IMG/VR virus record: IMGVR_UViG_3300009156_000067
Span: 1-32,127 of that record
Length of the DNA stretch: 32,127 nt
Source of the DNA: a virus
Direction: 5' to 3' (one strand)
The position numbers were made by a program, and so were the translations under genes. This document shows positions 1-32,127 of the stretch, piece after piece. The notes beneath the pieces are model-generated. The model had not been told where the DNA came from. It did not search any database and saw only the letters and a program-made list of their open reading frames with translations. How positions within the stretch are numbered: position 1 is the stretch's first letter; every line of letters begins with the position of its first letter.

Positions 1-2
1 CG

Positions 3-2383: not shown

Positions 2384-2398
2384 GGGGCACCAGCCCCC
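2384..2398. terminator. Possible hairpin between att region and lysis genes
   Basis: GGGGC, loop ACCA, GCCCC forms a small hairpin followed on plus by CTTTC. It could stop read-through from either side, since the minus-strand late operon ends at 2506 and plus transcripts come from int. It also contains a further GGGGCACCAG motif. There is no real T-tract, so this is tentative. Elsewhere in 2326-2505 only G/C-rich inverted repeats, and no gene, are visible. Confidence 0.3.
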
Positions 2399-3493: not shown

Positions 3494-6349
3494 TCAGGCG
3501 GGCTGGTTCGTGTTCCCGCTCAGCCGCGGGTCGGGATTAAAGACCTTCGCCAGGCGAGCGGATCGGCCCATATCCCGGGAGAATTCAAAGGCCACCATGG
3601 TCCGCTGGATCCCCCACGTATGGGTGATCCGTTCCGCGTCCCCGATATCGTGGCCGCCGTCCTCGTCCGTCCCGCCGGTCGTATGGGCCTGGGTGTACTG
3701 TTCCGGCTCATCCGGGGGCCGCTGATAGAGGATCCCGGTCAGGTGGCGGGACTTGTCCCCGGTGGCCCACCAATCGGCCTCCCCGCGGGGATCGCTCGAG
3801 GTGTGGTTGTAGTCCGGCCAGCCCGTGATCCGCTCCGGGGTGAAGTGACAATAGACCAGCGCGTCCGATCCGAACGTCTGCCGGAGGGTCTGGGCGATCC
3901 GGAGGTGGGCGTCCCCGCTCCACGCGAAGTAGAGCCGGTTGCTATGCGGGCCCAGGGGGCTATAGCCGTGGGGGCCCGGCGCCAGGACGTGGCCCGTGGG
4001 CGTCCCCTCCGCCGACTCCCGGAGCCGCCGGATCTTCCGCATGAGGACATGGTGGGCCCGCTCCGCCGCGGTCTCCACCCCATGGGGGCGGGGATCCCAC
4101 GCCACCACGTCCACCGCCACCGGGGCCCCGGTCCCGCCTGGCAGGTTGCCGGTGGTCGAGCCGGGGGCCGTCTTGTCCCCGAAGCCGCTGTTAATCTGCG
4201 GGAATTCCCAGCCCGTGGCCACGATCCGGATCAGGTCCGTGAACTGACTCAGCCAATTCTTGATAAAGAGGTGGGCGTCATCCTCCGTATAGCCCGGGTC
4301 CCCGGGGAGCCCGTCCGTAATGCCGAACAGGACCACCACGCACCCGTCCGCCTGGGTCTCCGTGATCAGGTCCCGGAGGCCCTGGGGGTTCCGCCGGAAA
4401 TCAAATTGCGGCTCCGATCCGTACGCCCCCCAGGCCGCGAACGGGATATGGGTGAGCCCGGCCGCCTTGAGGGTCATGCGATAGGCGGCCCGTTTCTCCG
4501 CGGACCACCCGGGATACATGAACCCCCAGGTGTAGTTGGGGACGCCCAGAAAGGCGCCGTGGACCCGCCCCGCGAGCTCGATCGAGGGTTTACTCCCGGG
4601 AGGGGGGAGGACCGTCGCCGTCGATCCCGGCTCCGCCAGGAACACGGACCAGTCGTCCAGGCGGTCCCCGTTCACCCGGACCGCCCCGCCGCCGCCGTCC
4701 TCCGCCCAGAGATAGCCCCCGGTCCCCCGGATCGCGACCTCGCCGTCCGGGTCCACCTCGAGCGTGAAACACTCCCAGGACCGCCCGGCACTATCCCGCC
4801 CGATCGCCGTCCGGTCCGCCATCAGGAGCCCGGTATTCTGATCGGCCGACAAGTACATGCCGTTATCGGCCCGGAGCGCCACCGTCCCGTCCGCCTGGGG
4901 GACCGGGTGGAAGGACTCCCAGATATCAGGGATCCCCGTCCGGGTGGCGTTCACCTCCCGGCCGCCGCCGTTCTCCGCGCAGAACAGGAACCCGCTCTGG
5001 GTTCGAATCGCGAGCGTTTTGGGCCCCGCCGGCGGGATTGGCTCCGGGGGGACCGTGGCCGGCTGGACCGTCACGGCCCGCCGGGCCCCGGTCTGGTGGG
5101 TCCCCGCGTCGTTCACCCCGCGGGCGGCGATCAGCCAGACCCCCGGCTGGGTCCACCGGAACGAGTGATCGGGATCGGCGGGATCGTTACTCGCCACCAC
5201 CAGCCAGGGCGTCCCGGGCCCGTCTGGCCGGGTCAGCCACTCGATCCGTGCGAGGGGCCCGGAGCCGGTCTCGAGGCCGTAGACGGCCTTGCAGGGCTCG
5301 CCGCCGATCGTGACCGTCGTGGGGGTATAGGACGTGATCGTAATCTTGGGCGGTTTCATCGGTGGAGGCTCCGGATCGGGCGGTTTGGGGGGGATCGGCG
5401 TGACCGGGACGGGGACGCGGGTCCGGGGCGTGTCGGCCGGGACGTCCAGAATCCGGAGGACGGGCCCGATCGGCGCCACGTTCGCAAACGCCGCGATCCG
5501 GAAGAACGATCCGGCCGGGTCCGCCCAGACGTCGAAGGCGTCCCCCTGCGAGCGGAGCTCGAGACAGATCGCCCGATCATCGACCAGCCGCCCGTCCGGG
5601 GTGAGGGGCCGCCCGTAGACCCAGCCGGCCCCCGTGGGGTCATACGTGCCGCTCCAGGCCCACCGCGTCCCGTCCGGGGTCTTCACCACGGCCACCAGGC
5701 CCTCGGTCGCCCAGGGGGCCAGCGTGACGTCCCGCGGGGTCCCGTCCGGGAGCTCGAGGGCGGCCGGGCCGTAGTAGCCGAACCCGATCCACCCGTCCGC
5801 CGAGGTCCGCCAGAGGTTCGAGCCCGCCGGCCGGCCCCGCGTCCAGAGGTGGGACCCCGTGGGGAGGTCGAACCCGTGCCAGCGGTCCGGATTGCGATCG
5901 GCCACCACGATCGTCCGGCCGGCCGTGGGCCCGAGGCCGCCGTACTCGCCCGCGATCACCTGGCCGTTCATCGTCAGCCGCCAGCCGTCCACCAGGACCG
6001 ACGCCCAGCCGCCGGCGCCAGCCTCGCAGGTATTCCCCGCCGCCCGGCCCTCCGGGACCGCCACCTGGTCCGGGGTCCAGGCCGGCGCCCGGGCCCGCCA
6101 GAGCCGCGCCGTCCCGGGGCCCGTGGGTTGCCAGTAGACGATCGTGGCGGCGTCCAGCCAGCGGTAGGCGCCACACCGGCCGCCGGCCGGGAGCGGGAGG
6201 GGCCGGAGCCCGTCCGTGAGCGTCCAGACCGATCCCACCTCATCCCCGCAGACTACCGCCCCGTCCGGGCTGAACCGGGGATACCAGACATCCCCCCGGA
6301 CCTCGAGGTGAACCACGCCGGGGAGCGTTCGCCGCCGGCGGGCCGTCAT
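3494..6349 (-). CDS. Large multidomain tail protein with glycosidase-like C-terminus
   Basis: Protein of 951 aa. Residues about 1-300 show beta-propeller-like repeats (FSPDG, PDGTRWAW). Residues 316-335 are a Pro-rich linker. About 336-430 resembles an Ig-like domain. About 443-575 has three Gly/Asn-rich repeats like a fascin or beta-trefoil carbohydrate-binding module (FLFCAENGGG, MYLSADQN, YLWAEDGGGG). About 590-951 resembles a TIM-barrel glycosidase, with E715 (TGWEFPQ) as a candidate catalytic acid. The basic start MTARRRRTLP is not a signal peptide. The ATG overlaps the previous stop (ATGA). A tail spike or receptor-binding role that binds and perhaps cuts surface glycans is inferred from domains and location. 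Domain limits are by eye. Confidence 0.6.
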   Translation of the reverse strand: MTARRRRTLPGVVHLEVRGDVWYPRFSPDGAVVCGDEVGSVWTLTDGLRPLPLPAGGRCGAYRWLDAATIVYWQPTGPGTARLWRARAPAWTPDQVAVPEGRAAGNTCEAGAGGWASVLVDGWRLTMNGQVIAGEYGGLGPTAGRTIVVADRNPDRWHGFDLPTGSHLWTRGRPAGSNLWRTSADGWIGFGYYGPAALELPDGTPRDVTLAPWATEGLVAVVKTPDGTRWAWSGTYDPTGAGWVYGRPLTPDGRLVDDRAICLELRSQGDAFDVWADPAGSFFRIAAFANVAPIGPVLRILDVPADTPRTRVPVPVTPIPPKPPDPEPPPMKPPKITITSYTPTTVTIGGEPCKAVYGLETGSGPLARIEWLTRPDGPGTPWLVVASNDPADPDHSFRWTQPGVWLIAARGVNDAGTHQTGARRAVTVQPATVPPEPIPPAGPKTLAIRTQSGFLFCAENGGGREVNATRTGIPDIWESFHPVPQADGTVALRADNGMYLSADQNTGLLMADRTAIGRDSAGRSWECFTLEVDPDGEVAIRGTGGYLWAEDGGGGAVRVNGDRLDDWSVFLAEPGSTATVLPPPGSKPSIELAGRVHGAFLGVPNYTWGFMYPGWSAEKRAAYRMTLKAAGLTHIPFAAWGAYGSEPQFDFRRNPQGLRDLITETQADGCVVVLFGITDGLPGDPGYTEDDAHLFIKNWLSQFTDLIRIVATGWEFPQINSGFGDKTAPGSTTGNLPGGTGAPVAVDVVAWDPRPHGVETAAERAHHVLMRKIRRLRESAEGTPTGHVLAPGPHGYSPLGPHSNRLYFAWSGDAHLRIAQTLRQTFGSDALVYCHFTPERITGWPDYNHTSSDPRGEADWWATGDKSRHLTGILYQRPPDEPEQYTQAHTTGGTDEDGGHDIGDAERITHTWGIQRTMVAFEFSRDMGRSARLAKVFNPDPRLSGNTNQPA

Positions 6350-8055
6350 CCGCTCGTCCCCGTGACCGTGACCGTGTTCGTCCCCAGGGGGGTCTCGGCC
6401 GTCGAGACCACCGTGAGCGTGGACGTCCCCGCCCCCGTCACGGTGGGCGGATCGAAGGATTCACTCGTTTTGCTCGAGGCGCCACTGACGGAGAACGTGA
6501 CCGCCCCGGCAAACCCGCCGGAGGGCGTGACCGTCACCAGGTAGCTCGCCGTCTGGCCGGGCTGGATCGTGACCTGGGACGGGTCCACCGACAGGGCGAA
6601 ATCCTGCTGCTCGACACTCCGGCCCTCCACCAGGGTCGTAATGTTGAAGTACGCCGAACAGGTATGTTGGAGGCCGGCACTGGTCCCCGTGACCGTGATC
6701 GTGTTCGTCCCCACCGGGGTGGACGCACTGGTCGCGATCGTGAGGGTGGCCGTCCCCTGGCCCGCGACCATGGGCGGATCGAAGGTTTCGGACGTCCCGG
6801 TGGAGGCGCCGGCCACACTGAAGTTGACCGAATCCATAAACCCGCCGACGGCCGTCACCGTGACGCGATACGTGGCGGTCTCCCCGCTCACGATCGTCTG
6901 GCCCACCGGGGAGATCGCGATCGCGAACTCCGGTAGCAGCGCGGGTTGATCCGTGACCAGGAGCTCCGTGGTGGTGGCGTGCGAGATCGGCCCGGGATCG
7001 GGGCCAGGGTCCGGCCCGGGGTCCGGCCCGGGTTCTGGCTCTGGCGGGACCGGAATCCCTTCCCCGCCGCCCGCGAGCGGGACGCCGGCGGAGCGCCGGC
7101 CGTCCGGATCCGTCACATACACCCAGGCCGCGGCCCCGTCCGCGATCGCCCCCCGGTTGACGGTACAGGTGATCGCGCCGTCCGCCCAGGCCGTGGCCGG
7201 CTGGTATTCGAGCGTGGTACAGCCCTCCCAGGTGGGGGCGTCCCCGAGCTCCACGCGGGCCCAGGTGTCATCCACCACCACGTCCGCATAGTACAGGGGC
7301 ATCGGGCCGCCGGAGTACCCCCAGGAATCCCAGAACCCGATCACATAGGGCCGCTTGTCCTGGTGGCCGCCGCTATCGCTGCTGACGTTCGTCAGGACCG
7401 CCCGATCGTCCAGGATCGGGGTCTGGTCCACCCAGATCCGGAACACGCCGTCCGGGGCGTCCACCGCGGAATTCTCGCCGTACTCCGCCCGGAAGTGATG
7501 CCAGGCGTTCAGGCTAAAGGTCTGGTCCAGCCACGGGACCCCGTGGATGTAATCGTCATCACAGGATCCTTCGTGCTCGTACGCCCGCCGCCAATTCATA
7601 TTGTCGAAGCTATGGAGGACCGCGTCCACGTTCGTGTAGTTCGAGCCGGTGGGGAAAAACCGGACGATCTTGATATTGGCCAGGCCATCGTCCCCGCCGC
7701 CGTGGCCGGTGGTCCCCCAGTGCCAGGTGTCGGGGAGATAGACCCGCCACGACACATACCACCGGGGGGCCGTCCCCGCGTTGTACTGGAAGGAGCACCA
7801 CTGGCCGTCCGATCCGGAACTCTTGCTGTAGTCCGCCTGGGCCGCATGGGTCCGCCGCGGCCGGACCACCGCGGTCTGGTCATAGACCATCTCGCCGCCG
7901 GACGCATTGTTGGTCAGGGCGGAGGACTTCCGGCCGCCCGCGAAGGTCTCCCAGACCAGGGGGGCCGCCGTGGGTTTCGCGCCAAAGCCGGCCCCGGTCA
8001 GGGTCAGGGTTCCCCCCTCCGCCGGGTTTCCGCCGATCGTCTCAATCGTAGGCAT
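6346..8055 (-). CDS. Lectin/lyase-like tail protein with two Ig-like repeats
   Basis: Protein of 569 aa. Residues 3-25 look like an IPT/TIG-type start (GGTLTLTGAGFG). About 35-275 resembles a jelly-roll polysaccharide-lyase or lectin fold (WHHFRAEYG, DGVFRIWVDQ, YYADVVVDDTW). Residues 337-356 are a (DPGP)n linker. Residues 376-459 and 485-569 are two Ig-like repeats of the kind common in secreted and virion proteins (TATYRVTVTAVGGF / TASYLVTVTPSGGF). The chosen ATG at 8055 has GAGGGGG just upstream and overlaps the lipoprotein gene by 14 bp. A longer reading from 8169 would overlap that gene more and lacks domain support. It is probably a virion adhesin; enzymatic activity is not shown. Confidence 0.65.
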   Translation of the reverse strand: MPTIETIGGNPAEGGTLTLTGAGFGAKPTAAPLVWETFAGGRKSSALTNNASGGEMVYDQTAVVRPRRTHAAQADYSKSSGSDGQWCSFQYNAGTAPRWYVSWRVYLPDTWHWGTTGHGGGDDGLANIKIVRFFPTGSNYTNVDAVLHSFDNMNWRRAYEHEGSCDDDYIHGVPWLDQTFSLNAWHHFRAEYGENSAVDAPDGVFRIWVDQTPILDDRAVLTNVSSDSGGHQDKRPYVIGFWDSWGYSGGPMPLYYADVVVDDTWARVELGDAPTWEGCTTLEYQPATAWADGAITCTVNRGAIADGAAAWVYVTDPDGRRSAGVPLAGGGEGIPVPPEPEPGPDPGPDPGPDPGPISHATTTELLVTDQPALLPEFAIAISPVGQTIVSGETATYRVTVTAVGGFMDSVNFSVAGASTGTSETFDPPMVAGQGTATLTIATSASTPVGTNTITVTGTSAGLQHTCSAYFNITTLVEGRSVEQQDFALSVDPSQVTIQPGQTASYLVTVTPSGGFAGAVTFSVSGASSKTSESFDPPTVTGAGTSTLTVVSTAETPLGTNTVTVTGTSG

Positions 8056-8281
8056 GCCGATCCCCCTCGTGTTTCTCGTCGTGCCACCGCTCCGGGGCGC
8101 ACGTATAACCACAAAATCCCTGGGGACAGTCGCGCCCGACCAGGATCCGCACCGGGAACCCGTCCCCACACATCATCGACCGCGGGAGCCGCCGCATCAC
8201 CTCCCGCCTGGCCCCGCCGCCCGTGGCACACCCGCCGAGGAGCGCCAGGAGGACGAGCAGCCCGGCCCCCCGGGGGATCAT
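8042..8281 (-). CDS. Small lipoprotein
   Basis: Protein of 79 aa with a classic lipoprotein signal: basic MIPRG, hydrophobic LLVLLALL, and lipobox LGGC with Cys18. The mature part is short with further cysteines (C38, C51, C56, C61; DCPQGFCGYTCAP) that could form disulfides or bind metal. The ATG overlaps the stop of the previous gene (ATGA), fixing the start. It lies within the tail-fibre gene run. An outer spanin (Rz1-like) or a superinfection-exclusion lipoprotein are possible roles. Neither is demonstrated, and no Rz partner was recognised next to it. Confidence 0.7.
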   Translation of the reverse strand: MIPRGAGLLVLLALLGGCATGGGARREVMRRLPRSMMCGDGFPVRILVGRDCPQGFCGYTCAPERWHDEKHEGDRHAYD

Positions 8282-8616
8282 GGGCCCGTCCGCCCAGCCG
8301 GCGGATCGGGGGCGCCCGTCACGGTCCCCGGGAGGACCCCGTCCGCGGAGAGTTTCTGCAAGATCCGCTTGTGCATGGAGTTGACGGAGAAGTTGGCGGT
8401 ATTCATCCACTTCATCAGATCCGTCGCCTCCTGGCCGAGGTACTGGTGCGCGAAGGGCTCCCCCAGGTTGCTCCGGAGGTGGATCGACACGACGCCCGGT
8501 TCACTCGTCGCCGGCGCCTGCACCCGCGTCCACTCGAGGACGAGCGACGTCACCTTGTAACTCGCCGTGGTCTGCGGCGGCGTCGTCACCGGGTCGGTCA
8601 GTTCGAGTTCTTCCAT
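8278..8616 (-). CDS. Phage protein of unknown function in tail module
   Basis: Protein of 112 aa not assigned to a family. It starts MEELELTDP at an ATG overlapping the preceding stop (TGATG), and ends in a Pro/Gly tail after a helical stretch (MHKRILQKLSADG). The middle has alternating beta-like segments (SYKVTSLVLEWTR, VVSIHLRSNLGE). There is no signal peptide or membrane helix. Its place between a fibre gene and a lipoprotein suggests a minor virion or fibre-assembly role, but this rests on context only. Confidence 0.6.
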   Translation of the reverse strand: MEELELTDPVTTPPQTTASYKVTSLVLEWTRVQAPATSEPGVVSIHLRSNLGEPFAHQYLGQEATDLMKWMNTANFSVNSMHKRILQKLSADGVLPGTVTGAPDPPAGRTGP

Positions 8617-10837: not shown

Positions 10838-12595
10838 TCAGGGCTCCGGCACCGCGGGCGCGAGCGTCCCCGCCGGGTAGGCATAGGCGCCAGCGACCCA
10901 GGCCTCACCATCGGCATCGCTGATCTGCATCTCCATCCGGTAGTACTCCGCCGTCCCGGCCAGGAGGGTGATCTGAAACTCCTGGAACGCTTCCACGGTG
11001 TTCCAATCCGTGGCGTTCGTCGCGGTCCCGATCCCCACCTCCGCCGCCGCCTCGTATCCAGGGAAGGTCCCCTCAATCTCCACCACCCGCACGTTGACCG
11101 TGTAACTACTGTCGAGGACCCACGATTGACACCGCACCATCCAGATCGGCGACAGCGCCGGATCCAGAATCACGTCATTGAACTGCACGATCGGGGTCCA
11201 TTCCGTGCAACCGCTGACCGTCACGGTCCGGGACCCGCCCAGGAACATTGGCGCCACTCCGGTCCCGGGCGTCCCGCCGCCCCCGCCGCCGTCCCCACCC
11301 CCGCCGCCCGTGATAATCCCCACCCCGGCGGTCCCGCCGGTCCCGGCAGACTTCCGCCAGAAATCAATCCAGTTGCTCCGGCTCTTGTTCGCCGCGATCG
11401 CGTCCAGATCGAAGCGCCACCACGGATCGGTCCCCTCCGCCGCCGTCCCCGCGTGCACCAGGCGGACGGAGGTCAGGAGGATCGGCAGGAGATAGATCCC
11501 ATACTGGGGGAGCGTGATCAGGGTGGCTTGGCCGGCCATCAGGCCCGGCCGCCGGGTGGTCACCCGGAACAGGAGCGGAAAGGTACTCCGCCGCTCGAGC
11601 TCCGCCGTGGCGATCGTCTGGGCCACGTCCGGATCCGTGACGTTCGGGGCGTCCACGATCACGGCCCGTTCATACGCCGCCGGGACCGACGCCACCGCGT
11701 AGGACGGCCAGGCCACCTCGAACGTCATCGTGAGGGTATGGGTGGCATCGAGGACCGGGTCCGTGGGGTCCTGGAGGAGCTCACTGGCCGCATAGTCCCA
11801 GACCCAGCCGGTCCCCGGCGCGGGGAACACCGGGAGCGGGATCCCGTCCACCGTGACCACGTTCGGGCCCACCTTGATCGAGGTATAGGGCGGATCGTAG
11901 GTGCGCGTGCCGTTCCCCGGGGTGGTCCAGGTGAGACTGGTGGGGCTCCCCTCGCCGCCGCCGAACCGGACCCAGAGGACGGAGGCCGATCCCGCCCGGT
12001 CCCGTTCCATGGTGGCGGCCATCAGATCGTCCGGCTCGAGCTCCCAGGCCCCCGGGATCGCCCCCCAGGGATAAGCGCCGAGGACCTGGGCCGGGCTGAT
12101 CTTCCAGGTCCAGCCGCCGGCGGCCGCGGTCAGGTTGTTTAAGGCCGTGGTGTAGGTCTGGAAGGGATACGCCTGGGCCGGGAACGTGGGCCCGTCCGCC
12201 TGGGCCGGATCGAGCGTGAATCCGTAGCTCGACAGCCGGGTCAGCATCCACTCGAGGACGTCCTTGAGGGTCCCGGCCGGGCTGATATCGTTGATCAGGA
12301 CCCCGTCCGCCACCTCGAGCCAATCGGCACAGGTGACCTGGTAGACCATGGTTTCCCGATCACCCCAATCCTCCGCATCGACCCGGGTCACGATCCCGCC
12401 AAACACCAGAACGTCGTCGATCGTGACCTCGACAATTTCCTCCACGGAGGGGACGTGCGGGGGATTGATCAGGCCGAAGGAGCAGACCGCCCGGGCCGTG
12501 AGGACGTCCTCCACCCGGAGGGTTTCGCGGCGGAGGCCCACGCCGGGGACGTCCCCGATCATTTCGTGGCCGGCCACCGTGACGGAGACCGCCAC
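10838..12595 (-). CDS. Baseplate hub / tail-associated protein
   Basis: Protein of 585 aa with a GTG start 3 bp after the tape measure gene. The N-terminal 60-300 matches the pattern of phage hub proteins: V-F-G-G-I-V followed by a D-W segment (LVFGGIVTRVDAEDWG, YQVTCADW), a short helical block (LKDVLEWML) and several beta domains. A Gly-rich linker sits at about 437-452, followed by a C-terminal beta sandwich that may contact fibres. The order tape measure, hub, fibres is the standard siphovirus order. An alternative ATG start exists at codon 12. Exact family (gpJ-, Tal- or late-control-D-like) cannot be fixed by eye. Confidence 0.7.
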   Translation of the reverse strand: MAVSVTVAGHEMIGDVPGVGLRRETLRVEDVLTARAVCSFGLINPPHVPSVEEIVEVTIDDVLVFGGIVTRVDAEDWGDRETMVYQVTCADWLEVADGVLINDISPAGTLKDVLEWMLTRLSSYGFTLDPAQADGPTFPAQAYPFQTYTTALNNLTAAAGGWTWKISPAQVLGAYPWGAIPGAWELEPDDLMAATMERDRAGSASVLWVRFGGGEGSPTSLTWTTPGNGTRTYDPPYTSIKVGPNVVTVDGIPLPVFPAPGTGWVWDYAASELLQDPTDPVLDATHTLTMTFEVAWPSYAVASVPAAYERAVIVDAPNVTDPDVAQTIATAELERRSTFPLLFRVTTRRPGLMAGQATLITLPQYGIYLLPILLTSVRLVHAGTAAEGTDPWWRFDLDAIAANKSRSNWIDFWRKSAGTGGTAGVGIITGGGGGDGGGGGGTPGTGVAPMFLGGSRTVTVSGCTEWTPIVQFNDVILDPALSPIWMVRCQSWVLDSSYTVNVRVVEIEGTFPGYEAAAEVGIGTATNATDWNTVEAFQEFQITLLAGTAEYYRMEMQISDADGEAWVAGAYAYPAGTLAPAVPEP

Positions 12596-12598: not shown

Positions 12599-15500
12599 CT
12601 ACGCCCCGATCCCGTAGGGGGCCATCACCCGGGGGATATGGCGGGCCGTGGAGCGGGCCAGGACCTCCCCGTCTACCACCACGGAGGCATTGACGGAGAG
12701 CGCGGACCCCTGGACGTCCGCCGAGAACGTGGGGAGCTCCGGGAAGTCATCGATATTGAAGGTCACCGGGATCTCGATTGTGGGCGTTTTAATGTTGTCC
12801 AGCGCGGTCTGGACGCCCTTGGCGCCGGTTTCCGCCCCGGCCACCATGTCCTTGGTGAGGACGTCGATCAGTTGGCCGATCCGGTCCACCAACTCCTGGA
12901 TCGCGCGCACCTGTTTATCGCCACTATCGCGGAACTGATCCCCGACGATCCCGGCGGCCTCCCCCTCGTCCAGGAGCTTCTGGGTAGCCTCGTCCACCGC
13001 GTACCCGTGATCCTTGGTGAGCTCCCAGACCCGTTGGAGCGGTTTCTGGATGAGGGCCAGCCCGGCCGCTCCGCCCTTGCCCATACTGACGAGCTCATTC
13101 CAGGTATTCGTCACCTCGCCGGCGAGGCCCGTAAACATCTCCTGGGTCAGGGCGCCGGTATTGGAGAGCCCGACCAGGAGATCGCCGAGGCCCCCGATCG
13201 CCTCGAACAGCGGGCCCGACACGGCATCGGACGCAAAGGCCGCCATGGTGGAGAGCTGGCCAAAGGCGGCCGACCCCGTGAAGCCCGTGACGGCGAGCTG
13301 CTGGGTGAGCGCCGCGATCGAGGGTTGGAGGGCCTGGAGGGCCTGGCCGGCGGACGCCCCCTGGCGCTGGAGATCCGCGAAGATCGCCCCGATCGCCGCC
13401 GTCGCCGCCGTCGCCCCGGCCTGACTCTTGAGGGCGGTCCGGCCAAACAATTCCATCGACAGCCGGGCCCGCTCCGCCGGATCCGCGATCCCGGCCAGGG
13501 CCGCCTGGAGTTTGTCGAACGCCTGCTCTGGCGTCAGGTCCTTTAATTTGTCGAAGGACAGGCCCAGCGTTTCCACGGCCGCCTTGGTCGATTTGCCCCC
13601 TTGGTCCAGGACCGTCCGCAAGTGGGCCAGGGCGTTCCCACTGGACGATACGAACGCCTGCAGCCCCTTCGCGGCGTTGTCGGTTTGCTCCTGGAAGAAT
13701 TTGAACGCCACGGCCACCTGCTGGGGTTGCAGGGACGTCCCGATCTTCGTCAATTCGTCTCTGAGCTCTGGCGTCAGGAGGGCCCCCCGCGCCGTCAGCG
13801 TGTCCAGGGCGGCCCCGAGCTTGTGGGTCTGGCGTTCCGCCTCCGCCATCGCGTCCGCGTACGCCACGGCGGCCGCTTTGGCACTCCCGATCTGGTTGGC
13901 CTGCAGGAGGCTGTCGAGGGCCTGGAGGGCCGCCGTATTCCCCTCCGCCGCGTCCCGCATCGTCTCGAGGCCACCGCCGGCCAAGAGGATCTGTTGGCGG
14001 AACTCGCCGGCCTGCTTCGCGGTCCCTTGCAGGAACTCGCCGAGCGCTTGCCCGAACCCCGACAGGAACAGGCTCACGAGCGGGCCGGCGAAGCTCCCGA
14101 CGATCCCGCCCACCGTCTTCCCGACGGCGCCCCCAATCCCTTCGGCGATCTGGGTGGACAGGACCTTCCCGATCTGCTGCCCGAGGGTCTGGCCGAGCCC
14201 GGCCCCAATCGTCCGCCCCACGTCCGCCGCGCTCGCCCCCTCCAACGCGTCGATCAGCCCCCGGCCGATCGTCTCGCCGATCTCCCGGCCGAGGTGTTCA
14301 AACGCTTCCAGCCGGACGAGGCGGGCCGCCCGGTCCAGTTCTTCCTGGACGGGGGCCGCGATATTCGGGGCCGCCCGGCCGCCAAAGAGCGCGTCCCACG
14401 GGAGTTGTTGGATCCCGACGATAAAGCCCCGGACCGCCTCCCCGGACGCCTGGAGCGCCGGCATCAGGGTGGCCGTGAGGTTCTGGGCGGAGAGGATGAT
14501 CTGGTTATTCCACTTAATCCATTCCGGGCTGACCTCCTCGCCGAGCCGCCGGGCGTTGTCGATCGCGGTCTGGAGGACCTGTTGAAATTCGCGGAGCTTG
14601 CTGGGATCGATCGAGAGCCCCTGCCGCTCGATTGCCTCGAGGACCTGGAGGAGCTCGTTGGCCTTTTGGCGGGCCCCCCGCCCGGTGGCCGCGTCGAGCG
14701 CTTTCTGGAACGCCTCAAAGGCGGTCGTGGCCTTTTTGAGGGCCTCGTCCGTCTCGTCGCCGAACTCCCCGATCGCCTTGCGGGCTTTCTTGGTGTTCCG
14801 CTCGAGATCGGCCATGGTCACGCCGGCCACCACGCCGAGCTCCGGGAAATCCTTGAACTCGAAGAGGGCGTCTTGGACTTCCCGGCTGAGCTCCCGGGCC
14901 GGGCCGGCAGTGGCCGACAGGGCCGCGGCCATGTCGTTGAGCCCCTCGATGACCGGCCCCATGCCCAGGGCCATCTCATGGTGCGCCTGTTGCGCGATCA
15001 CGAGCTCATCGGCCAGGGCCTTCCACTCCGCGGCCGCCGCCGCCGCCGCCTCCCGCTGGGTCTCGCTTTTCGCCTCGAGCGCGATCCCGCGGTTCGACAT
15101 TTCCATGGCCCGCGCAATCGCGATCGCGACGAACTCCATGGTCGAGGCCACGCCCGCCCAGCTCTGCACCACGAACCCCGCCGCCCGCACGGCGATCGCG
15201 GCCAGTTCAACAAAGGCCCGCGCCAGTTCCCGGGCTAATTCCTGTTGTTCGACCCCCACGGCCTCAGCGATCGCCGCCTTGAGATCGCGGGCGGCCAGCA
15301 CCAGATCGCGGTCTGTGAACGCCCGCCCCAGCTCGTTGATGAACGTCCCGGCCAACTCCGTGGTCGTGGTGATCAGATCGTTCAGGAGCGGGAGCATGGG
15401 GGCGAGGGCCTCCGCAATGAACGCCCGCCCCTGGAGTTTGAGAATGTCGAACTGATCGGCGAGCTTGGCCGCCGCCGCGATCGTTTCGGTCGAGATCACG

Positions 15501-16381
15501 ATCCCGAGCTGCCGCGCCTGGGCCACCGTCTGGGCCATCTCGCCCGTCAGGGCGGGGAGCAGCTCGAGGCCCTGTTTGCCGAAGATCTCGACGGCCCGGC
15601 GGGCCTTTTCCGCCGGATCGGCGATCTTGCCGATCGCATCGGCGGCCTTGATAAAGAGCTCGTCCGGCGCGAGTTGGCGGAGCTCGGCGACACTCAGCCC
15701 GACCTTTTCCAGGCCGCGCACCACCCCCTTGTCGCCGGCGACGAGGGCCGCCCCCAATTTCGTCGTCGCCTGGGTGACACTGTCCAGCGAGACGCCGCTT
15801 TGCTCCGTCGCGAACGCGAGCTCTTGCAGGCCCGTCGTGGTGATCCCGGTTTTCGCCTCGAGGTCCGCGAGATGATCGGCAAAGGCGATCGTATCGGTCA
15901 CACTCGCCGCGATCGCACTGCCCAGGCTGCGGACCGCGTCCGCCAGGAGGTTCCCGACGGCCGACGCTCCCGTGAGTTTGAGAAACGAGACGCCCATGGC
16001 CTCCGTTTCTCCCGCCGCCTTGCGTTGACCTTCCTCGAGGGCCTTGAACTCCCCGGCCAGCTTGGCAATCTGCGGGGGGACCGCCTGGCCCAGTGCCGTG
16101 TACTTGGCGATCGCCTCCGTGATCGTCCGGTTGGCTTTCGCCTGTTCCGCTTCCGTGAGCTTGGTCGCCCCGCCGATCTTGTCGATCGCGGCCGCGACCG
16201 TCGTCGCCTCCTGGAGGATCCGGTCCCCAGAAAACCCCGCACTCATTTTCTGGAAGGCTTTGGAGGCCGCCTCCGCTTCCTTGGTGACCTGGTCGATCTT
16301 GGAGGCCGCGCCCCCCATCTGTTGCTCGAACTGCGACAGGGCCGCGGTCAGCCGGACGGTCAGGGTGGCAATATCGGCCAT
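12599..16381 (-). CDS. Tail tape measure protein
   Basis: Protein of 1260 aa, by far the longest helical protein here, rich in Ala, Gln, Leu and Glu with long coiled-coil stretches. The N-terminus (TVRLTAALSQFEQQM) is typical of tape measures. Residues about 735-790 form a Gly-rich hydrophobic region (VGGIVGSFAGPLVSLFL) likely to act in membrane passage. Residues 215-280 and 915-985 are related repeats sharing a L-x-P-(D/E)-(E/Q) segment, then IADPAE(K/R)AR and E(I/L)FG. At about 1.5 Angstrom per residue the tail would be near 190 nm. It follows the tail chaperone genes as expected. It ends TAG, 3 bp before the hub GTG. Confidence 0.93.
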   Translation of the reverse strand: MADIATLTVRLTAALSQFEQQMGGAASKIDQVTKEAEAASKAFQKMSAGFSGDRILQEATTVAAAIDKIGGATKLTEAEQAKANRTITEAIAKYTALGQAVPPQIAKLAGEFKALEEGQRKAAGETEAMGVSFLKLTGASAVGNLLADAVRSLGSAIAASVTDTIAFADHLADLEAKTGITTTGLQELAFATEQSGVSLDSVTQATTKLGAALVAGDKGVVRGLEKVGLSVAELRQLAPDELFIKAADAIGKIADPAEKARRAVEIFGKQGLELLPALTGEMAQTVAQARQLGIVISTETIAAAAKLADQFDILKLQGRAFIAEALAPMLPLLNDLITTTTELAGTFINELGRAFTDRDLVLAARDLKAAIAEAVGVEQQELARELARAFVELAAIAVRAAGFVVQSWAGVASTMEFVAIAIARAMEMSNRGIALEAKSETQREAAAAAAAEWKALADELVIAQQAHHEMALGMGPVIEGLNDMAAALSATAGPARELSREVQDALFEFKDFPELGVVAGVTMADLERNTKKARKAIGEFGDETDEALKKATTAFEAFQKALDAATGRGARQKANELLQVLEAIERQGLSIDPSKLREFQQVLQTAIDNARRLGEEVSPEWIKWNNQIILSAQNLTATLMPALQASGEAVRGFIVGIQQLPWDALFGGRAAPNIAAPVQEELDRAARLVRLEAFEHLGREIGETIGRGLIDALEGASAADVGRTIGAGLGQTLGQQIGKVLSTQIAEGIGGAVGKTVGGIVGSFAGPLVSLFLSGFGQALGEFLQGTAKQAGEFRQQILLAGGGLETMRDAAEGNTAALQALDSLLQANQIGSAKAAAVAYADAMAEAERQTHKLGAALDTLTARGALLTPELRDELTKIGTSLQPQQVAVAFKFFQEQTDNAAKGLQAFVSSSGNALAHLRTVLDQGGKSTKAAVETLGLSFDKLKDLTPEQAFDKLQAALAGIADPAERARLSMELFGRTALKSQAGATAATAAIGAIFADLQRQGASAGQALQALQPSIAALTQQLAVTGFTGSAAFGQLSTMAAFASDAVSGPLFEAIGGLGDLLVGLSNTGALTQEMFTGLAGEVTNTWNELVSMGKGGAAGLALIQKPLQRVWELTKDHGYAVDEATQKLLDEGEAAGIVGDQFRDSGDKQVRAIQELVDRIGQLIDVLTKDMVAGAETGAKGVQTALDNIKTPTIEIPVTFNIDDFPELPTFSADVQGSALSVNASVVVDGEVLARSTARHIPRVMAPYGIGA

Positions 16382-18012: not shown

Positions 18013-19067
18013 GCCACCGCCTGCCCCGTCGCCCAGGTCCGGATCCGGAACGTGAGGATCTGGGAGAACAGGAGGACCCCATCCTCCACCGCCGGGGTGG
18101 GGCCGTCCGAGACCACCGCCGTCAGGATCCCCGGGCTCCAGGCCGGCGCCAGATCGAGCCGCGTCTGGTCCAGGAGCTCGAACACGCGATGGGTCAGGGC
18201 CTCGAGGGCCGCCAGCTCCGCCGCTTCCACGACCAGGGTCAGGGTCACGTCCCGGCCGCCCCGCCGGAATTGGTTGACCGGGCTTTCCCCGGCCACCGCA
18301 TACGTCAGGAAGGGCACCGCCGCCCCCTGGGGGGCCACGGGCGCATAGAGGGCGGGTTCGCCGCCCAGGAGCGCCAGGAGGGCCTCATCGGCCAGGAGCC
18401 GGGCCACGACCGCCCGCCGGACCGTCCCGAGGGCGGAGCCGGCCCGGCTCCCGACCGTCCCGGCCGGGGGAACGGGCTCCGGGGGGACCGTCACCAGATC
18501 GCCGCCGCTCCAGTCGTCCAAGGCGTTGTTGTCGTACTCCCCGATAAAGAAGATCCCCGGCTGGCCGGTAGTCAGACGATCGGCGTGGGTGTCCACGTAC
18601 GTCGTGACGAGCTCATCCCCGCCGACGCCGCTATAGGCCCGGAGGGTGACACTGGCGCCCGTGGTTTCCACCTCGAGGCGGATCCGATCGCCGGCGGAGA
18701 CCACCCCGGCCCCGCCATACGCCAGGAGCGTGGAACTACCCGCCACGATCCGCTTGATCTCCCACCCGTTATCCGGGGGCTCCGGGGGGGCCGCGCCGAA
18801 CCGATAATGGGTCACCGCGGCCAGGGCCGCCCGCACGATCACCCCGCATTCCGGGCCGGCAATCGACAGGGCCGCGATCCGGGCGTCCGCGTACTGGTCC
18901 GCGCCGAACGTCGCCGCGTTCCACACCCCAACATTCGGCCCGGACGTCCCCAGCGCCCCGCACGCGTAGGCACTGATCCGCGTCCGGAGGGCCCCCGCGG
19001 GGACGGTCCAATTCGGGCCCAGCCCGGGGCCGTCCGGCCGGTTGAAATCGTCGGAGGCCGTGGCCAT
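18009..19067 (-). CDS. Lectin-like domain fused to tail terminator
   Basis: Protein of 352 aa with two parts. Residues about 1-190 resemble a concanavalin/LamG-type jelly roll: a D-D-F-N-R-P-D-G start, YADARIAALS, then IRLEVETTGASVTLRAY and DDWSGGDLV, as in many glycan-binding domains. A Pro-rich linker at 194-203 leads to 215-350, which matches the DUF3168 tail-terminator pattern (VRRAVVARLLADEALLALLG, PFLTYAV, FELLDQTRLDLAP, FRIRTW). The terminator ring caps the tail tube. Tail terminators are normally about 130-150 aa, so the N-terminal addition is unusual. The single open frame without gaps argues against an assembly artefact. It follows the gp10-like gene with TGATG overlap. Confidence 0.75.
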   Translation of the reverse strand: MATASDDFNRPDGPGLGPNWTVPAGALRTRISAYACGALGTSGPNVGVWNAATFGADQYADARIAALSIAGPECGVIVRAALAAVTHYRFGAAPPEPPDNGWEIKRIVAGSSTLLAYGGAGVVSAGDRIRLEVETTGASVTLRAYSGVGGDELVTTYVDTHADRLTTGQPGIFFIGEYDNNALDDWSGGDLVTVPPEPVPPAGTVGSRAGSALGTVRRAVVARLLADEALLALLGGEPALYAPVAPQGAAVPFLTYAVAGESPVNQFRRGGRDVTLTLVVEAAELAALEALTHRVFELLDQTRLDLAPAWSPGILTAVVSDGPTPAVEDGVLLFSQILTFRIRTWATGQAVA

Positions 19068-20559: not shown

Positions 20560-21885
20560 CTAGCGCCGATCCCGATCGTCCCGGCCGGCGGGTTCGTTCC
20601 GGCTGGCGGGTTCATTCCGGCCGCCGGCGGGGCCGGAGCGCGTGCCGAGCGCCGGCGCCGTGCCGAGCCCGTCCACGATGCCGAACGCCGCGGGCGTATA
20701 CCAGACCGCCGCCTCCCGGATCTCCACCCGGATCACCGTGATGTTCTTAATGAAGAAATCGGCGTGACTGTTGGTCAGGGTGACCCGGACGCCGCGCTTG
20801 CGGAACAGTTGCGAATTCGTGGCAAACGCCCCCACCACCGCCGTCCCCGCCGTCAGGGCCGGGGTGGCGATCGTCTCGAGGCCCCAGATCCGGAACGGGA
20901 GCGGGGAACGATCGAAGGGGACGCCCGGGGTAATGAAGGTCCCCATGGCGGACTGGGTCAGCAGGAGCGCCGGCAGGGCCGCCGGGTGAATCGCGATCCC
21001 GGTGGGCATAAAGCCCGAGCTGGCGTAAATCGCCATGTACTGCTCGAGGATCGCCGCGGCCACCGTAGCACTGTCGCCCGTGACCGTGGGGGCGAGGCCC
21101 GTCAGGGTGGTCACGCCCTGGAGCTCGCCGGCGGTCCCGGTGCCCTTGATGAGTTGGCGGTCCTCATCGATAAACAGCATGTTGATCAGGAGGTTTTCGA
21201 GGACCGACTCCACCGCCGGGACGTCCTCGAGGAGCTGATCGGGGACCTGAATCCACCCGGCGATCGTCTCGACCGGGACGATCTTTTGGGTGATCGCCAC
21301 CACCGGCTCCACCTTCGCGGCCCCCTTCGCGGTCTGGGCCATGCTGGCGGGCTGGGTCCCCACGATCTCGACGTACGGGACCGCGCCCGCGTCCGTCGTC
21401 CCCTGGGCCATGAGGCCGGCCACCGTGGGCCGCCGGGGCGCCATCGGGGCAATCGTCGCCGCCGGGAGGGCGACGTCCGTCGCCGCCGGGACGTCCGGAT
21501 AGCCGATCAGGGCTTTGGCCTCGAGATCGAGGTCCAGCGAGATCGTCCCCCGGGCGGCCTTGTAGGTGGCAAACGACGGGGACTCCACCACCCGCCGGCT
21601 CCACTTCTTCACCTCGCCGGAGCCCAGGAAGGGGGCGCCGGAGAGCGTGGGGACGCCTTTCTGGCCGGACGGCGGGACCAGGCCGGCGAACTTCTCGCCA
21701 AACGCCAGGGACTCCCGCTGGGCCGTGATCCGCTTCCCCATCGCCTCCGCTTTCGCCTGGAGGTCCAGGAACCGCGTCCGTTCCCCGTCCGTCAGGTCCC
21801 GGTTCTCCGTCACGGCCGCGTCCGTGAGGCTCTTGGCCTCCGTGATCGCGTCGTGGAGCTCGTCGTAGATGGTTTTGGCACTCAT
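20560..21885 (-). CDS. HK97-type major capsid protein
   Basis: Protein of 441 aa. Residues about 1-100 form a helical coiled-coil delta domain (LTDGERTRFLDLQAKAEAMG) that serves as internal scaffold and is normally removed by the prohead protease. The remainder has the HK97 fold pattern, including an E-loop region, WIQVPDQLLEDVP, MLFIDEDRQLIKGTG and the P-domain GIAIHPAALPALL. The C-terminus carries two RNEPA repeats and a charged end (GRDDRDRR) beyond the usual fold. It follows protease and portal genes, and CGGAG lies upstream of the ATG. Firm by fold pattern, size and order. Confidence 0.92.
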   Translation of the reverse strand: MSAKTIYDELHDAITEAKSLTDAAVTENRDLTDGERTRFLDLQAKAEAMGKRITAQRESLAFGEKFAGLVPPSGQKGVPTLSGAPFLGSGEVKKWSRRVVESPSFATYKAARGTISLDLDLEAKALIGYPDVPAATDVALPAATIAPMAPRRPTVAGLMAQGTTDAGAVPYVEIVGTQPASMAQTAKGAAKVEPVVAITQKIVPVETIAGWIQVPDQLLEDVPAVESVLENLLINMLFIDEDRQLIKGTGTAGELQGVTTLTGLAPTVTGDSATVAAAILEQYMAIYASSGFMPTGIAIHPAALPALLLTQSAMGTFITPGVPFDRSPLPFRIWGLETIATPALTAGTAVVGAFATNSQLFRKRGVRVTLTNSHADFFIKNITVIRVEIREAAVWYTPAAFGIVDGLGTAPALGTRSGPAGGRNEPASRNEPAGRDDRDRR

Positions 21886-22639: not shown

Positions 22640-23944
22640 TTATGCCTGCGCCGCGATGCCGGCCGCCTGGGCCTGGGCGATCGCCTGGTCCTGGGCGGCC
22701 TGGCCGGCATCCACGTTGAGCGGGACCACCGGAAGCGAATAGGCCGGATCCGGCAGGGTGGGGAGGTTTTCCTTGGCCCTGGCCTCGTTGACCGACATGA
22801 TCGGGACCCCCACGAGGGTCCGGATCGCCGCCGCCCGGTCTTCCTGGGCCCCGCGCAGCTTTTCGTCGATCAGGAATTCGAGGTAGACGTTCTCCCGATC
22901 GGGGAATTCGGAGAGGATCGCCCGCTCGATCTCTTGCTCGAGCAGCGCCAGGATCGGGCCCAGGGTGTCCTGATAGACCACCTTATGCATTTCCTTGGCG
23001 GAGCCGTAGGACATCGAGCCCTCGAGGATCCCCACGGCCTGGGCGGGAATCTGATAGAGCCCCGCCACCACCTCCCGATACCACCGCCGGAAGTCTTGCG
23101 CCTGGGCCTCCTGGGCGGACGGCCCGATCGGCTTGTACGTCATCCCGTCCTCGAGGACCATCATCCGGCCGGCCGGGACGATCCCCGCGTCCTCCGAAAA
23201 TTGCTGTTTCTGCGGGGGCGTCCACTTGGGGGCGTCCAGCGGGCGTTCGATCACCCCGGAGGCCCGGCCCTGTTGATACTGGGTCCGGGCGTATTTCTGG
23301 GCGGACCGCTCGAGGCTCAGGAGCTCGTTCAGGGTCCGGAGCGGGGACAGGCCCAGGGACGCCGGATCCGGGTCATACAGGCGGAAGTGCGCCAGGTCCC
23401 GGAGGGCGGCCACGCCGGGGGCCCCGCTGGGGTAGCGCCACTCCACCCCGGCCACCGCCTCGAGGCCGTCCGCCTCCGCCGGCGGGAGCCAGACGGGCCG
23501 GACGAGCGCCGGCGGGATCCGGACGAGCTGGAGGCCGCCGCCGGCGGGGTGGAGCTTGGCCCACAGGCCAAACCCGAAAATAAAGAGATCGTGAACGGTG
23601 GCGTCAATGAACTGATACGGGGTGGCGGAGGGGTTCGGGGCCGCCAGCGTCAGCGCCAGCCCGTGATCCCGGAGCCGCTCCCGCGAATTGTCCGGAAGCC
23701 GCCGGTAGACGTGCATGGGGAGCTGGGCGACGTTCCGCGCCAGGAAATCCGTACAGGTCCGGACCATCGGGTCCCGGACGTACTGGGTGGCGTAGTCGTA
23801 CGCCGCGTCACAGTCGGAGAGGGTGGCGATCGAGACCGCCCCCAGGCCGGAGAGCCCGAGGCCCGTGGGCGTGGGGTCCCAGGTGGCCTTCCACCCGCCC
23901 CACCGTTGTTGGAATCCTTGGACGAGGCCGGAAAAGACCCCCAC
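22640..23944 (-). CDS. Portal protein (HK97 family)
   Basis: Protein of 434 aa with a GTG start. Family features include the early helix YDYATQYVRDPMVRTCTDF, PMHVYRR, the wing-stem region (LSPLRTLNELLSLERSAQKYARTQYQQG), AGRMMVLEDGMTYKPIG and the clip/crown helix (YREVVAGLYQIPAQAVGI, MSVNEARAKENLP). It forms the dodecameric ring through which DNA is packaged. It lies downstream of terL and a small HTH gene and 13 bp upstream of the protease. An Ala/Gln-rich C-terminus follows the usual end. Confidence 0.93.
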   Translation of the reverse strand: MGVFSGLVQGFQQRWGGWKATWDPTPTGLGLSGLGAVSIATLSDCDAAYDYATQYVRDPMVRTCTDFLARNVAQLPMHVYRRLPDNSRERLRDHGLALTLAAPNPSATPYQFIDATVHDLFIFGFGLWAKLHPAGGGLQLVRIPPALVRPVWLPPAEADGLEAVAGVEWRYPSGAPGVAALRDLAHFRLYDPDPASLGLSPLRTLNELLSLERSAQKYARTQYQQGRASGVIERPLDAPKWTPPQKQQFSEDAGIVPAGRMMVLEDGMTYKPIGPSAQEAQAQDFRRWYREVVAGLYQIPAQAVGILEGSMSYGSAKEMHKVVYQDTLGPILALLEQEIERAILSEFPDRENVYLEFLIDEKLRGAQEDRAAAIRTLVGVPIMSVNEARAKENLPTLPDPAYSLPVVPLNVDAGQAAQDQAIAQAQAAGIAAQA

Positions 23945-24314: not shown

Positions 24315-25970
24315 TTATACGACCAGGAGCCGGGAATCCGCATAGGCGGAGGGGGCCCGGTGGCGGGTGGCCCGATCGAGGGCCATCACCGCCGCCACCA
24401 GGCCGTCGATCTTCGCGGAACTCTTTTCCTTGTCGGGTTTGAGGTTGCCGGCCGGGTCCCGCCGCACCACCAGGTTTTCCACCATCCACCGGATCACGGG
24501 GTGGCCGCCGTGGTGGAGGGCCTGGGCCCCCAGCAGCCGCTCGAACTCCCGCATCGCCGGCGCCATACTCAGGAACCCCTGGCCCATCCCAAACACCCGG
24601 AGGCCCTCCGCCGCGAGCTCGTTACTAAGCTGGGCGGCCTGGAACAGGCGATCGACGTTCAGGTCCACCACCTGGAACCGCCCCGCGTCCTCGAGAATGT
24701 CCGCCCGGACCTGGTCGTACTGGATCACCGCCCCCGGGATCACGGTCAGGTGACCGGTCTGGGCCCAGGCCCGATAGGACGCCCCCATCCGGCCCTGGAG
24801 TTGCGCCTCCGGGACCCAGAGCCGCCACCGGAGGACGTACTGGTCCGGCTCGTCCGTGGGGAACGCCAGACACCACCCCGTCAGGTCCGACACTGCCGAC
24901 AGGTCCAGCCCGCCGTAACAGGGCCGGCCGGCGAACCACGCCGGATCGGTGGGGTAGGGCTGGGCCTGGGCATCCCAGATCGTCCGGTCGATCCACTGGG
25001 CCGCGGTCTGGAGCCACTCGTTCAATCGCTTTTGCCGGAACACGTACTGCCGGGCCGGCATCCCGGCCGCCTGGCGGGCCTGTTTCTCGAGATCGTCCCG
25101 GGTGACCGACACCCCATAGTTGGGGTTCGCTTTGGCCCAGGAGCCTTCCTCCTGCCACGCGTCCCCCTCATCGATCCCCGTCACAAACGCGAACCAGGAG
25201 GGATCCTCGAGGGCCCGGGTGAGGACGTTCACGGAATAGGTATGATGTTCAAAACAGATACTTTCCCGGCTCACCCCGGCCGTGGTGATCTCCGCGATCA
25301 CCGGCTGGCGCCGGCCGCCCAGGGCGGAGTGCATGACGTCCACCACCTCAGACGTGGGGTGGGCGTGGAGCTCGTCGATCACCACCCCATGGGGGCGGAG
25401 GCCGTCGAGCTTCTGGGCGTCCGCGGAGACCGCCTCGAGCTTCCCCCCCCAGGCCGGCGCCGTGACCGCATGGCGGGAGACCGCGACAAACGGGCGGAGC
25501 TGGCCGGGGGTGGCGAGGACCAGCCCGCGGGCCGTGTCGAGGACGATCCGGGCCTGTTCCCGCTTGGTGGCCGCGCAGTAGACCTCCGCCGCCGGCTCAT
25601 CATCGAACGCCGTCAGGAGGATCGCCCACCCGGCCAGGAGCGTGGATTTGCCGTTGCTCCGGGGGACTTCGATATAGGCCACCCGAAAGCGCCGGCGCCG
25701 GCTCCGGGGCTCCACCCAGCCGAACAGGGAGCCGGTTAGGAACGCTTGCCACGCCATCAGTTCGAGGGCCTGGCCGGCCCACTCGCCTTTGAAGTGCCGG
25801 AGCTGGGGGAAGAACTCGATCGCGGACCGGGCCCGGCGCCGATCGAACACCCAGACCCCGTCCTCGAGGTCCCGGAGGTGGCGGGCGGCCGCGGCCCGGT
25901 GGTAGTGATTGGCGGGGACCTTCCCGGCCACCACCTGGCGGGCGTAGATCCCCACCGGGTCCGGGAGCAT
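24315..25970 (-). CDS. terL: Terminase large subunit
   Basis: Protein of 551 aa, the DNA-packaging ATPase and nuclease. Walker A is at 102-110 (VPRSNGKST) and Walker B at 196-200 (VVIDE followed by LHAHP). The nuclease domain shows D356 (GGLDLSAVSDLTGW) and D522 (KIDGLVAAVMALDRA). The pattern is that of the HK97-type Terminase_1 family. The ATG lies 3 bp after the stop of the 59-aa gene and the terS gene is next upstream. It packages DNA with TerS and docks on the portal. The family points to cohesive-end (cos) packaging, but no cos site was identified. Confidence 0.95.
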   Translation of the reverse strand: MLPDPVGIYARQVVAGKVPANHYHRAAAARHLRDLEDGVWVFDRRRARSAIEFFPQLRHFKGEWAGQALELMAWQAFLTGSLFGWVEPRSRRRRFRVAYIEVPRSNGKSTLLAGWAILLTAFDDEPAAEVYCAATKREQARIVLDTARGLVLATPGQLRPFVAVSRHAVTAPAWGGKLEAVSADAQKLDGLRPHGVVIDELHAHPTSEVVDVMHSALGGRRQPVIAEITTAGVSRESICFEHHTYSVNVLTRALEDPSWFAFVTGIDEGDAWQEEGSWAKANPNYGVSVTRDDLEKQARQAAGMPARQYVFRQKRLNEWLQTAAQWIDRTIWDAQAQPYPTDPAWFAGRPCYGGLDLSAVSDLTGWCLAFPTDEPDQYVLRWRLWVPEAQLQGRMGASYRAWAQTGHLTVIPGAVIQYDQVRADILEDAGRFQVVDLNVDRLFQAAQLSNELAAEGLRVFGMGQGFLSMAPAMREFERLLGAQALHHGGHPVIRWMVENLVVRRDPAGNLKPDKEKSSAKIDGLVAAVMALDRATRHRAPSAYADSRLLVV

Positions 25971-30511: not shown

Positions 30512-30601
30512 CGCGTGACAAACGCGTGACTCACGCGCGTGACAAACCGCGTGACACCCCCACGGTCACGGCCGTGACAAACCGCGTGACTCACGCGTGA
30601 C
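30512..30601. repeat. Helically phased CGCGTGAC array, candidate origin or operator
   Basis: CGCGTGAC occurs exactly at 30512, 30523, 30536, 30548, 30583 and 30594, with a degenerate copy (GCCGTGAC) at 30571. Spacings are 11, 13, 12, 23, 12 and 11 bp, near one or two helical turns. A perfect 14-bp palindrome GTCACGGCCGTGAC sits at 30565-30578, and TCACGCGTGA and TCACGCGCGTGA palindromes also occur. The array lies immediately downstream of the replication-type winged-helix gene. It is read as iterons of a replication origin, or as an operator for the neighbouring HTH proteins. No reading frame across it has coding character. Confidence 0.65.
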
Positions 30602-30949: not shown

Positions 30950-31210
30950 TCACCCCGCCTTGCGCACCGGCCGCCGGGGGGCGGTCAGCCCTAAGCGCCG
31001 GACGAGGTCCGCCCCCACCCCGTCAATATCGCGGGCCACCTCCGCCCGGGGCGTCCGGGGCCGGCCGATATTCGGCAGACACCGCGGGCCCCAGGTCCCG
31101 GCCAGCCGCTTGTTCCGGATCGTCCGGGATGAGATCCCGTAGATCTCCGCCAGATCGCCGTCGGTCAGCAGATCGGGGTAATCCTCAAGTTTTCGTCCGC
31201 CGGCGCCCAT
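30950..31210 (-). CDS. Small HTH protein (excisionase/MerR-like)
   Basis: Protein of 86 aa starting MGAGGRKLEDYPDLLTDGD, with GGAGG five bases before the ATG. The HTH (DLAEIYGISSRTIRNKRLAGTW) resembles those of excisionases and other small DNA binders. It follows the XRE gene with a 26-bp overlap and precedes the replication gene by 3 bp. It could be the missing excisionase, although it is far from int on the map, or an early regulator. An upstream start (31345) is less likely because of the strong ribosome site. Confidence 0.65.
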   Translation of the reverse strand: MGAGGRKLEDYPDLLTDGDLAEIYGISSRTIRNKRLAGTWGPRCLPNIGRPRTPRAEVARDIDGVGADLVRRLGLTAPRRPVRKAG

Positions 31211-31463
31211 GGCCGCCTCCGTTGTCCGGGAAACAATCCGGGAACAGATCATCGAGGGACGCCTCGAGGATCCCGCTGAGTTGCACTGCGATATGGAGCT
31301 TGGGCGGACTCTTGCCCTGTTCCAATTCGCTGTAGCGGGGGACACTCATCCCTAATTGCTGGGCCACCTGGGCCTGGGTGAGGTCTCGCACCCGGCGCCA
31401 GGCCCGGAGACCTTTGAGGACCGGGGGCGGGTGATCACGTGCGGACGCCGCCGTATGCACCAT
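31185..31463 (-). CDS. XRE-type transcriptional regulator, first gene of early operon
   Basis: Protein of 92 aa with a Cro/CI-type HTH (LTQAQVAQQLGMSVPRYSELEQGKSPP) at about 28-54 and a short C-terminal part (ASLDDLFPDCF). The start at 31463 is chosen because a good minus-strand promoter has its -10 at 31567-31572, so starts at or above 31571 cannot be transcribed from it. The plus regulator at 31666 is divergent. A cro-like or repressor role at the divergent region is likely. Confidence 0.75.
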   Translation of the reverse strand: MVHTAASARDHPPPVLKGLRAWRRVRDLTQAQVAQQLGMSVPRYSELEQGKSPPKLHIAVQLSGILEASLDDLFPDCFPDNGGGHGRRRTKT

Positions 31464-31566
31464 TGCACCAAAATTCTCCACCAAGTGACGGAGTTGGGGG
31501 CCCCGCCGGGAAGGGGTGGCGAAAAGGTTATGGAATTCCGCTGGGCTAGACGGACCGAACCGGGAA

Positions 31567-31595
31567 TTCATACCCCGTGGAGACGATGGGGTCAA
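31567..31595 (-). promoter_or_regulatory. Promoter of the early minus-strand operon
   Basis: On the minus strand -35 TTGACC (31590-31595) and -10 TATGAA (31567-31572) are separated by exactly 17 bp, a sigma70-type arrangement. The expected start near 31560 leaves a leader of about 97 bp before the XRE gene. GAATTC occurs at 31533, 31564 and 31598, overlapping or flanking the -10 and -35, and could be part of an operator. Confidence 0.55.
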
Positions 31596-31665: not shown

Positions 31666-32055
31666 ATGTATACTGCTCACTTCGTGGCTCCCCCGCATTT
31701 GTCGTGGCACGCTGGCCACGTCGTCCGAGCCCTCCGGGAGCGCCAGCAGTGGACCCAGGTTACGTTAGGCGAACGGGCCGGGACCAAACGGGCCCCGATC
31801 TCCCCACAAACGATCCTCCGGCTGGAACACACCGGGACCGCGTCCCCGCGGGTCCAGGCCGGGGTGGCCCGCGCCCTGGACCTCACCTGGGCGGAGATCC
31901 TCGAGGCCGTCCCCATGGCCCTGTCCCCGGCCTGGGGGCAGATCATCGCGTCGTTGCGGATCTTCGAGATGAACCTCCGGGCGGAGCTGGCCCCGCCGGC
32001 GCCCGCCCAGAAAAACGACCGCGCCCCGCGGGCGGGAGGCCCGCCGCGATCATGA
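31666..32055 (+). CDS. XRE-type regulator coupled to integrase
   Basis: Protein of 129 aa with a Cro/CI-like HTH at about 20-72 (LRERQQWTQVTLGERAG, SPQTILRLEHTGTASP). The ATG lacks a clear Shine-Dalgarno site and TATACT at 31669-31674 looks like a -10, so the message may be short-leadered and start further in, for example at GTG 31684. The C-terminus is hydrophilic. Its TGA overlaps the next ATG (ATGA), which begins an integrase. It probably controls lysogeny together with int expression. The same arrangement, with a related C-terminus, stands at the left edge of the window. Confidence 0.7.
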   Translation: MYTAHFVAPPHLSWHAGHVVRALRERQQWTQVTLGERAGTKRAPISPQTILRLEHTGTASPRVQAGVARALDLTWAEILEAVPMALSPAWGQIIASLRIFEMNLRAELAPPAPAQKNDRAPRAGGPPRS

Positions 32056-32127
32056 GTGAGCCCCCTCCGCTCCCCCCCGGCATCAGTCAGGACCCCGACG
32101 GGGCGTACCGCGTCCGGGTCATCTGTC
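31991..32127 (+). repeat. Right-hand copy of the 137-bp unit-end similarity (left copy 1-137)
   Basis: Positions 31991-32127 align without gaps to 1-137 at an offset of 31,990 bp. The integrase part (76 bp) differs at 3 sites. The regulator tail (61 bp) differs at about 15. The boundary therefore repeats, but it is not an exact overlap. It implies a repeat unit near 32.0 kb and homologous junctions on both sides. Confidence 0.85.
32052..32127 (+). CDS. int: Start of a second integrase (partial)
   Basis: The first 25 codons of an integrase nearly identical to the one at 62: it starts MSEPPPLPPGISQDPDG where the first copy has MSQPPP, and the remaining visible residues match. It is truncated by the window end. 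Its ATG overlaps the regulator stop. It is a second, slightly different copy, or the same gene in a variant of a circular genome. Confidence 0.75.
   Translation, partial: MSEPPPLPPGISQDPDGAYRVRVIC

Follow-up and report, generated by a model that had tools for sequence, protein, structure and literature searches.

Breaks in an assembly graph leave contig ends that overlap by the length of a k-mer, and such breaks are caused by alternative paths, e.g. those created by strain variation (COBRA, PMC10914622). For the MEGAHIT assemblies made at JGI, the k-mer lengths are stated to be 23,43,63,83,103,123 (PMC6478937; PMC6243002). The window analyzed here, i.e. the entire 32,127-base IMG/VR record IMGVR_UViG_3300009156_000067, has ends that are homologous but not identical. 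We consider it highly likely that this contig represents one full turn, of approximately 31,990 bp, of a circular, non-integrated temperate tailed phage, with two alleles meeting at the ends, and the phage is best read as a temperate siphophage. Its structural genes follow an order like that of Marinobacter phage AS1 (MK088078), namely TerS - TerL - portal - protease - capsid - tail, tape measure and fibres, and the large terminase subunits (TerL) of the two are 38% identical. AS1 differs in its host and its integrase, the integrase gene lies at another distance, and no close DNA similarity to the window is reported.

In an ungapped comparison, the first 137 bases of the window were found to be homologous to the last 137 at an offset of 31,990, with 18 differences. 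Fifteen of these are located upstream of the integrase gene (positions 2,6,9,12,15,18-23,26,33,38,42) and three within it (positions 68,76,94), which are also the counts given in the earlier note. The local alignment of one end against the other reached a score of 205, whereas 199 stretches of 400 nt drawn at random from the window gave 36 at most, and the terminal pair is the sole direct repeat longer than 41 nt. An exact repeat from the first base to the last was not found; identity is confined to the final 43 nt of both copies (95-137 and 32085-32127), which constitute the longest exact repeat in the whole window. The density of differences changes from 15/42 to 3/95 (Fisher p = 1e-6, for a split point that was picked post hoc on data already seen). 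Since positions 43-67, which span the border between the regulator and integrase genes, are identical in the two copies, the divergence shifts within the regulator tail, near position 42, and not at the gene border. The left end opens with a 23-nt run consisting of G and C only. As this G/C-only stretch also codes for proline and alanine, the alignment of the first approximately 24 nt is ambiguous, and a shift of 3 nt fits too.

The variable stretch corresponds to the proline/alanine-rich tail of an HTH regulator. In the left copy (allele A), positions 1-65 translate to PAPAPARNDRTPRSGGPPRS followed by a stop, while in the right copy (allele B), positions 31993-32055 translate to PPAPAQKNDRAPRAGGPPRS followed by a stop. 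Both alleles are in frame and end at the same stop, which overlaps the integrase start as ATGA. Translation of the divergent tip stays in frame, the amino-acid changes including R/K, T/A and S/A, and of the three integrase codons that differ, two changes are silent and one is Q/E. We find a pair of homologous coding alleles a better explanation of the end differences than random error. It had been suggested from the first reading that two related phages share a conserved integrase next to a diverged regulator. This description holds for the 65 nt of regulator sequence present in allele A, but not for the whole regulator or for two distinct phage types, because the variable part is the Pro/Ala-rich tail and allele A covers nothing but that tail. 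A tblastn search next to the Acidobacteria integrases revealed no homologue of this regulator. The true start of the divergent repressor-like gene next to the regulator may lie downstream of 31595.

Table. Location of the main features of the window, with the evidence for each.
Feature	Position	Strand	Content or evidence
Left end, allele A	1-137	+	HTH regulator, partial (1-65: final 20 codons plus stop); integrase gene, first 76 nt
Right end, allele B, same locus	31991-32127	+	Regulator tail, then first 76 nt of integrase gene
HTH regulator, 129 aa (allele B)	31666-32055	+	PHROG 5823, E=5e-5; HTH_31 slightly under cut-off; joined frame
Tyrosine integrase, 385 aa	62-1219	+	PHROG 1 integrase, E=1e-24; PF00589 above cut-off
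Divergent HTH_3 repressor-like gene	31185-31595	-	PF01381 above cut-off; PHROGs repressors and regulators
Large terminase subunit (TerL)	24315-25970	-	PHROG 9, E=4e-150
Portal protein	22640-23944	-	PHROG 2662, E=1e-80
Major head protein	20560-21885	-	PHROG 10, E=4e-31
Tail tape measure protein	12599-16381	-	PHROG 8462, E=5e-15
attP core, 3' half of tRNA-Glu(UUC)	2281-2323	-	Shared with two related phages; tRNA-Glu genes of Acidobacteria match with 2 mismatches
GGGGCACCA sites, six copies flanking the att core	2044-2392	.	Five on one side, one on the other

Genes for terminase, portal, capsid and tape measure were all matched in PHROGs, which places the phage among the tailed phages (Caudoviricetes). 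Besides genes for head, connector and tail, the window encodes both terminases, the integrase, a repressor, a regulator and a replication initiator. It also encodes two nucleases, one of the HNH type and one of the DUF1064 family, the latter listed by PHROGs as a Holliday junction resolvase. No host gene was recognised in it. The phage gene set, covering terminase, head, tail, replication and lysogeny functions, supports the circular reading, and taken together with the end join it suggests a complete genome of approximately 31,990 bp. That the IMG/VR record gives no completeness estimate counts against the same reading.

Other parts of the window have features of their own. The gene at 30605-30946 matches phage replication initiation proteins (PHROG 2447), and the adjoining 90 bp of intergenic DNA (30513-30601) contain six GCGTGAC repeats, a candidate iteron-type replication origin or operator. 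The gene at 28566-29369 matches PHROG 424 (E=5e-40), a phage family of phosphoadenosine phosphosulfate reductases. On the minus strand at 3494-8169, two large proteins of 951 and 607 aa are encoded that lack PHROGs matches, the smaller one being built with repeated Ig-like modules; both are probable tail fibre or host-binding proteins.

The att-like tRNA fragment reported within the window proved to be real. Its similarity to tRNA-Glu ends at the anticodon stem, as expected for an attP. Within the genome collection, exact copies of a 22-nt piece of the core are limited to three records, all of them from Acidobacteria, and each copy sits inside a complete tRNA-Glu gene. A 36-nt att pattern had no match in genome contigs, and among the sampled Acidobacteria genomes the full 43-nt core was found with two mismatches in three and three mismatches in a fourth, with no exact match. 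GGGGCACCA occurs six times in the window, each time around the core, compared with 0.81 copies expected window-wide and fewer than six in each of 100 shuffles; these sites are probably arm sites of the integrase, judging by this clustering. An att core with arm-like sites on both sides is in line with an intact circle, and phage genes are present on both sides of the att region. The combination of a tyrosine integrase with a nearby tRNA 3' half as attP is that of a tRNA-targeting temperate phage. From the sequence, the predicted host belongs to the Acidobacteriota, and the integrase would insert the phage into the 3' half of tRNA-Glu(UUC). When 396 genomes of this phylum were searched for an integrated copy, distant integrases only and no close prophage were found. 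A tRNA-SeC call made by ARAGORN at 2278-2360 was rejected, its 3' part being the tRNA-Glu half and its 5' part having no acceptor-stem pairing to it.

A scan of viral contigs for the att core led to two phages, L084 (IMGVR_UViG_3300048917_000458) and L087 (IMGVR_UViG_3300043602_000055). In both, the gene of a related integrase is closely followed downstream by the same half of tRNA-Glu(UUC) and, as in the window, separates the terminase side from the tail side. The two phages are distant relatives, with 28-31% protein identity for the integrase and 35% for TerL, and this distance counts against the circular reading, as does the different small gene found directly upstream of the integrase in L084. 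In L084, the head genes and TerL are followed by the integrase, att and tail-side genes in an unbroken series with a single integrase gene, and this order (TerL - int - att - tail genes) becomes that of the window only once the window ends are joined. Because the join keeps both the regulator frame and the ATGA overlap, and L084 is continuous at the equivalent place, the gene order of the window is continuous across the joined ends. In L087 (18,984 bp), bases 1-134 correspond to 18851-18984, with four mismatches in the first 11 nt followed by 123 identical nt. L084 aligns through this end join, so that the closure of L087 is independently supported by a third contig, and ends that are homologous but not identical thus recur in a related phage. 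L087 closes with a single integrase gene at about 18,850 bp, as against 31,990 for the window, and the closed genome so implied carries capsid, terminase and tape measure genes. Another shared element is the cysteine motif CGDGFPV...CPQGFCGYTCAPERW, which in the window belongs to a small ORF (8042-8410, minus strand) within the larger lysis/tail region and in L084 and L087 adjoins att.

Searches for nearer relatives gave little. Neither the integrase nor a 585-aa protein (10838-12595) had a relative in viral contigs; TerL found one short, distant contig. Furthermore, no match was obtained for the exact 43-mer or for the pattern of the junction, the integrase had none in phage records and matched only distant integrases in plasmids, and the portal relatives were set aside as too distant to serve as a guide to the junction. 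By these sequence comparisons the phage would seem to stand without a close relative, although near kin may be missing from what was searched.

An assembly of a mixed population could have produced these ends in the following way. If the sampled population contained at least two alleles of the junction between regulator tail and integrase start, the assembly would start at base 1 on allele A, within the G/C-only stretch, go once round the genome and return on allele B. It would then stop where the allele B path merges into integrase sequence already used, which would leave the exact overlap of 43 nt. Given such a path, the ends of the window would be alternative versions of one locus and not two loci. 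The exact overlaps in the window and in L087, of 43 and 123 nt respectively, both occur in the JGI MEGAHIT k-list, a match that supports a graph break without proving it, as the contig's assembler may be another. An overlap at k=43, and not at the largest k, would call for a further explanation, for instance low coverage. Three elements of this account are inferred, namely a population with two alleles, a break in the graph, and the state of a free circle rather than a tandem array.

A tandem array is the other reading that the earlier note had offered alongside the strain-mixed circle. Two related phages would then lie head to tail at one tRNA-Glu gene, and the window would run from the integrase of the first, through the central att, to the integrase start of the next. 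In a tandem array, the att at the centre is equal to attP, as established for lambda dilysogens, and a single period of sequence therefore fits this arrangement too, with the same gene order, an internal att amid phage genes and differing end alleles. Against it, two related phages would have to be integrated at one site, and the two related contigs with an internal att would all have to be arrays as well; moreover, the window contains neither host DNA nor a further, distinct set of phage genes. No datum requires or favours tandem prophages, and we regard them as unlikely. More doubtful still is the specific case of a tandem pair at one Acidobacteriota tRNA-Glu gene that shares an integrase and differs in its regulators, and so perhaps in immunity. 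Of the two readings first proposed, it is thus the strain-mixed circle that has gained, through the continuity of L084, the ends of L087, the intact att and the complete-looking gene set.

The window could also be a linear piece of a larger genome in which the regulator-integrase junction occurs twice through a local duplication of the integrase, with phage genes beyond both ends. Such a duplication agrees with the right end holding only the start of a second integrase copy and with a contig that is not closed by an exact repeat. With the genes for head, tail, packaging, replication and lysogeny already complete inside the window, a single integrase in the continuous TerL - int - att - tail series of L084, and L087 closing with a single integrase too, we find this very improbable. 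Lastly, the circle could be clean, with one true allele, and its low-coverage tip the product of faulty sequencing or assembly. This reading would suit the G/C-only run at the left end and the L087 mismatches, likewise confined to the extreme tip, but hardly deserves credence, as errors would not respect codons in the way that the in-frame tip (R/K, T/A, S/A) and the silent or Q/E integrase differences do.

The mismatched ends are thus very probably what the assembly of a mixed phage population ordinarily leaves behind, and not evidence for side-by-side prophages. A complete circular phage genome can pass for a linear fragment where population variation makes its ends differ, and of the three related phage contigs analyzed, two had homologous but not identical ends. 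Together, these contigs add a candidate phage group for Acidobacteriota that shares the tRNA-Glu(UUC) attachment site. The contig breaks described in the COBRA paper resemble that of the window in having an end overlap of k-mer length. They differ in that the window has both alternatives at the two ends of one contig, homologous but not identical, so that a check for an exact end repeat would miss them.
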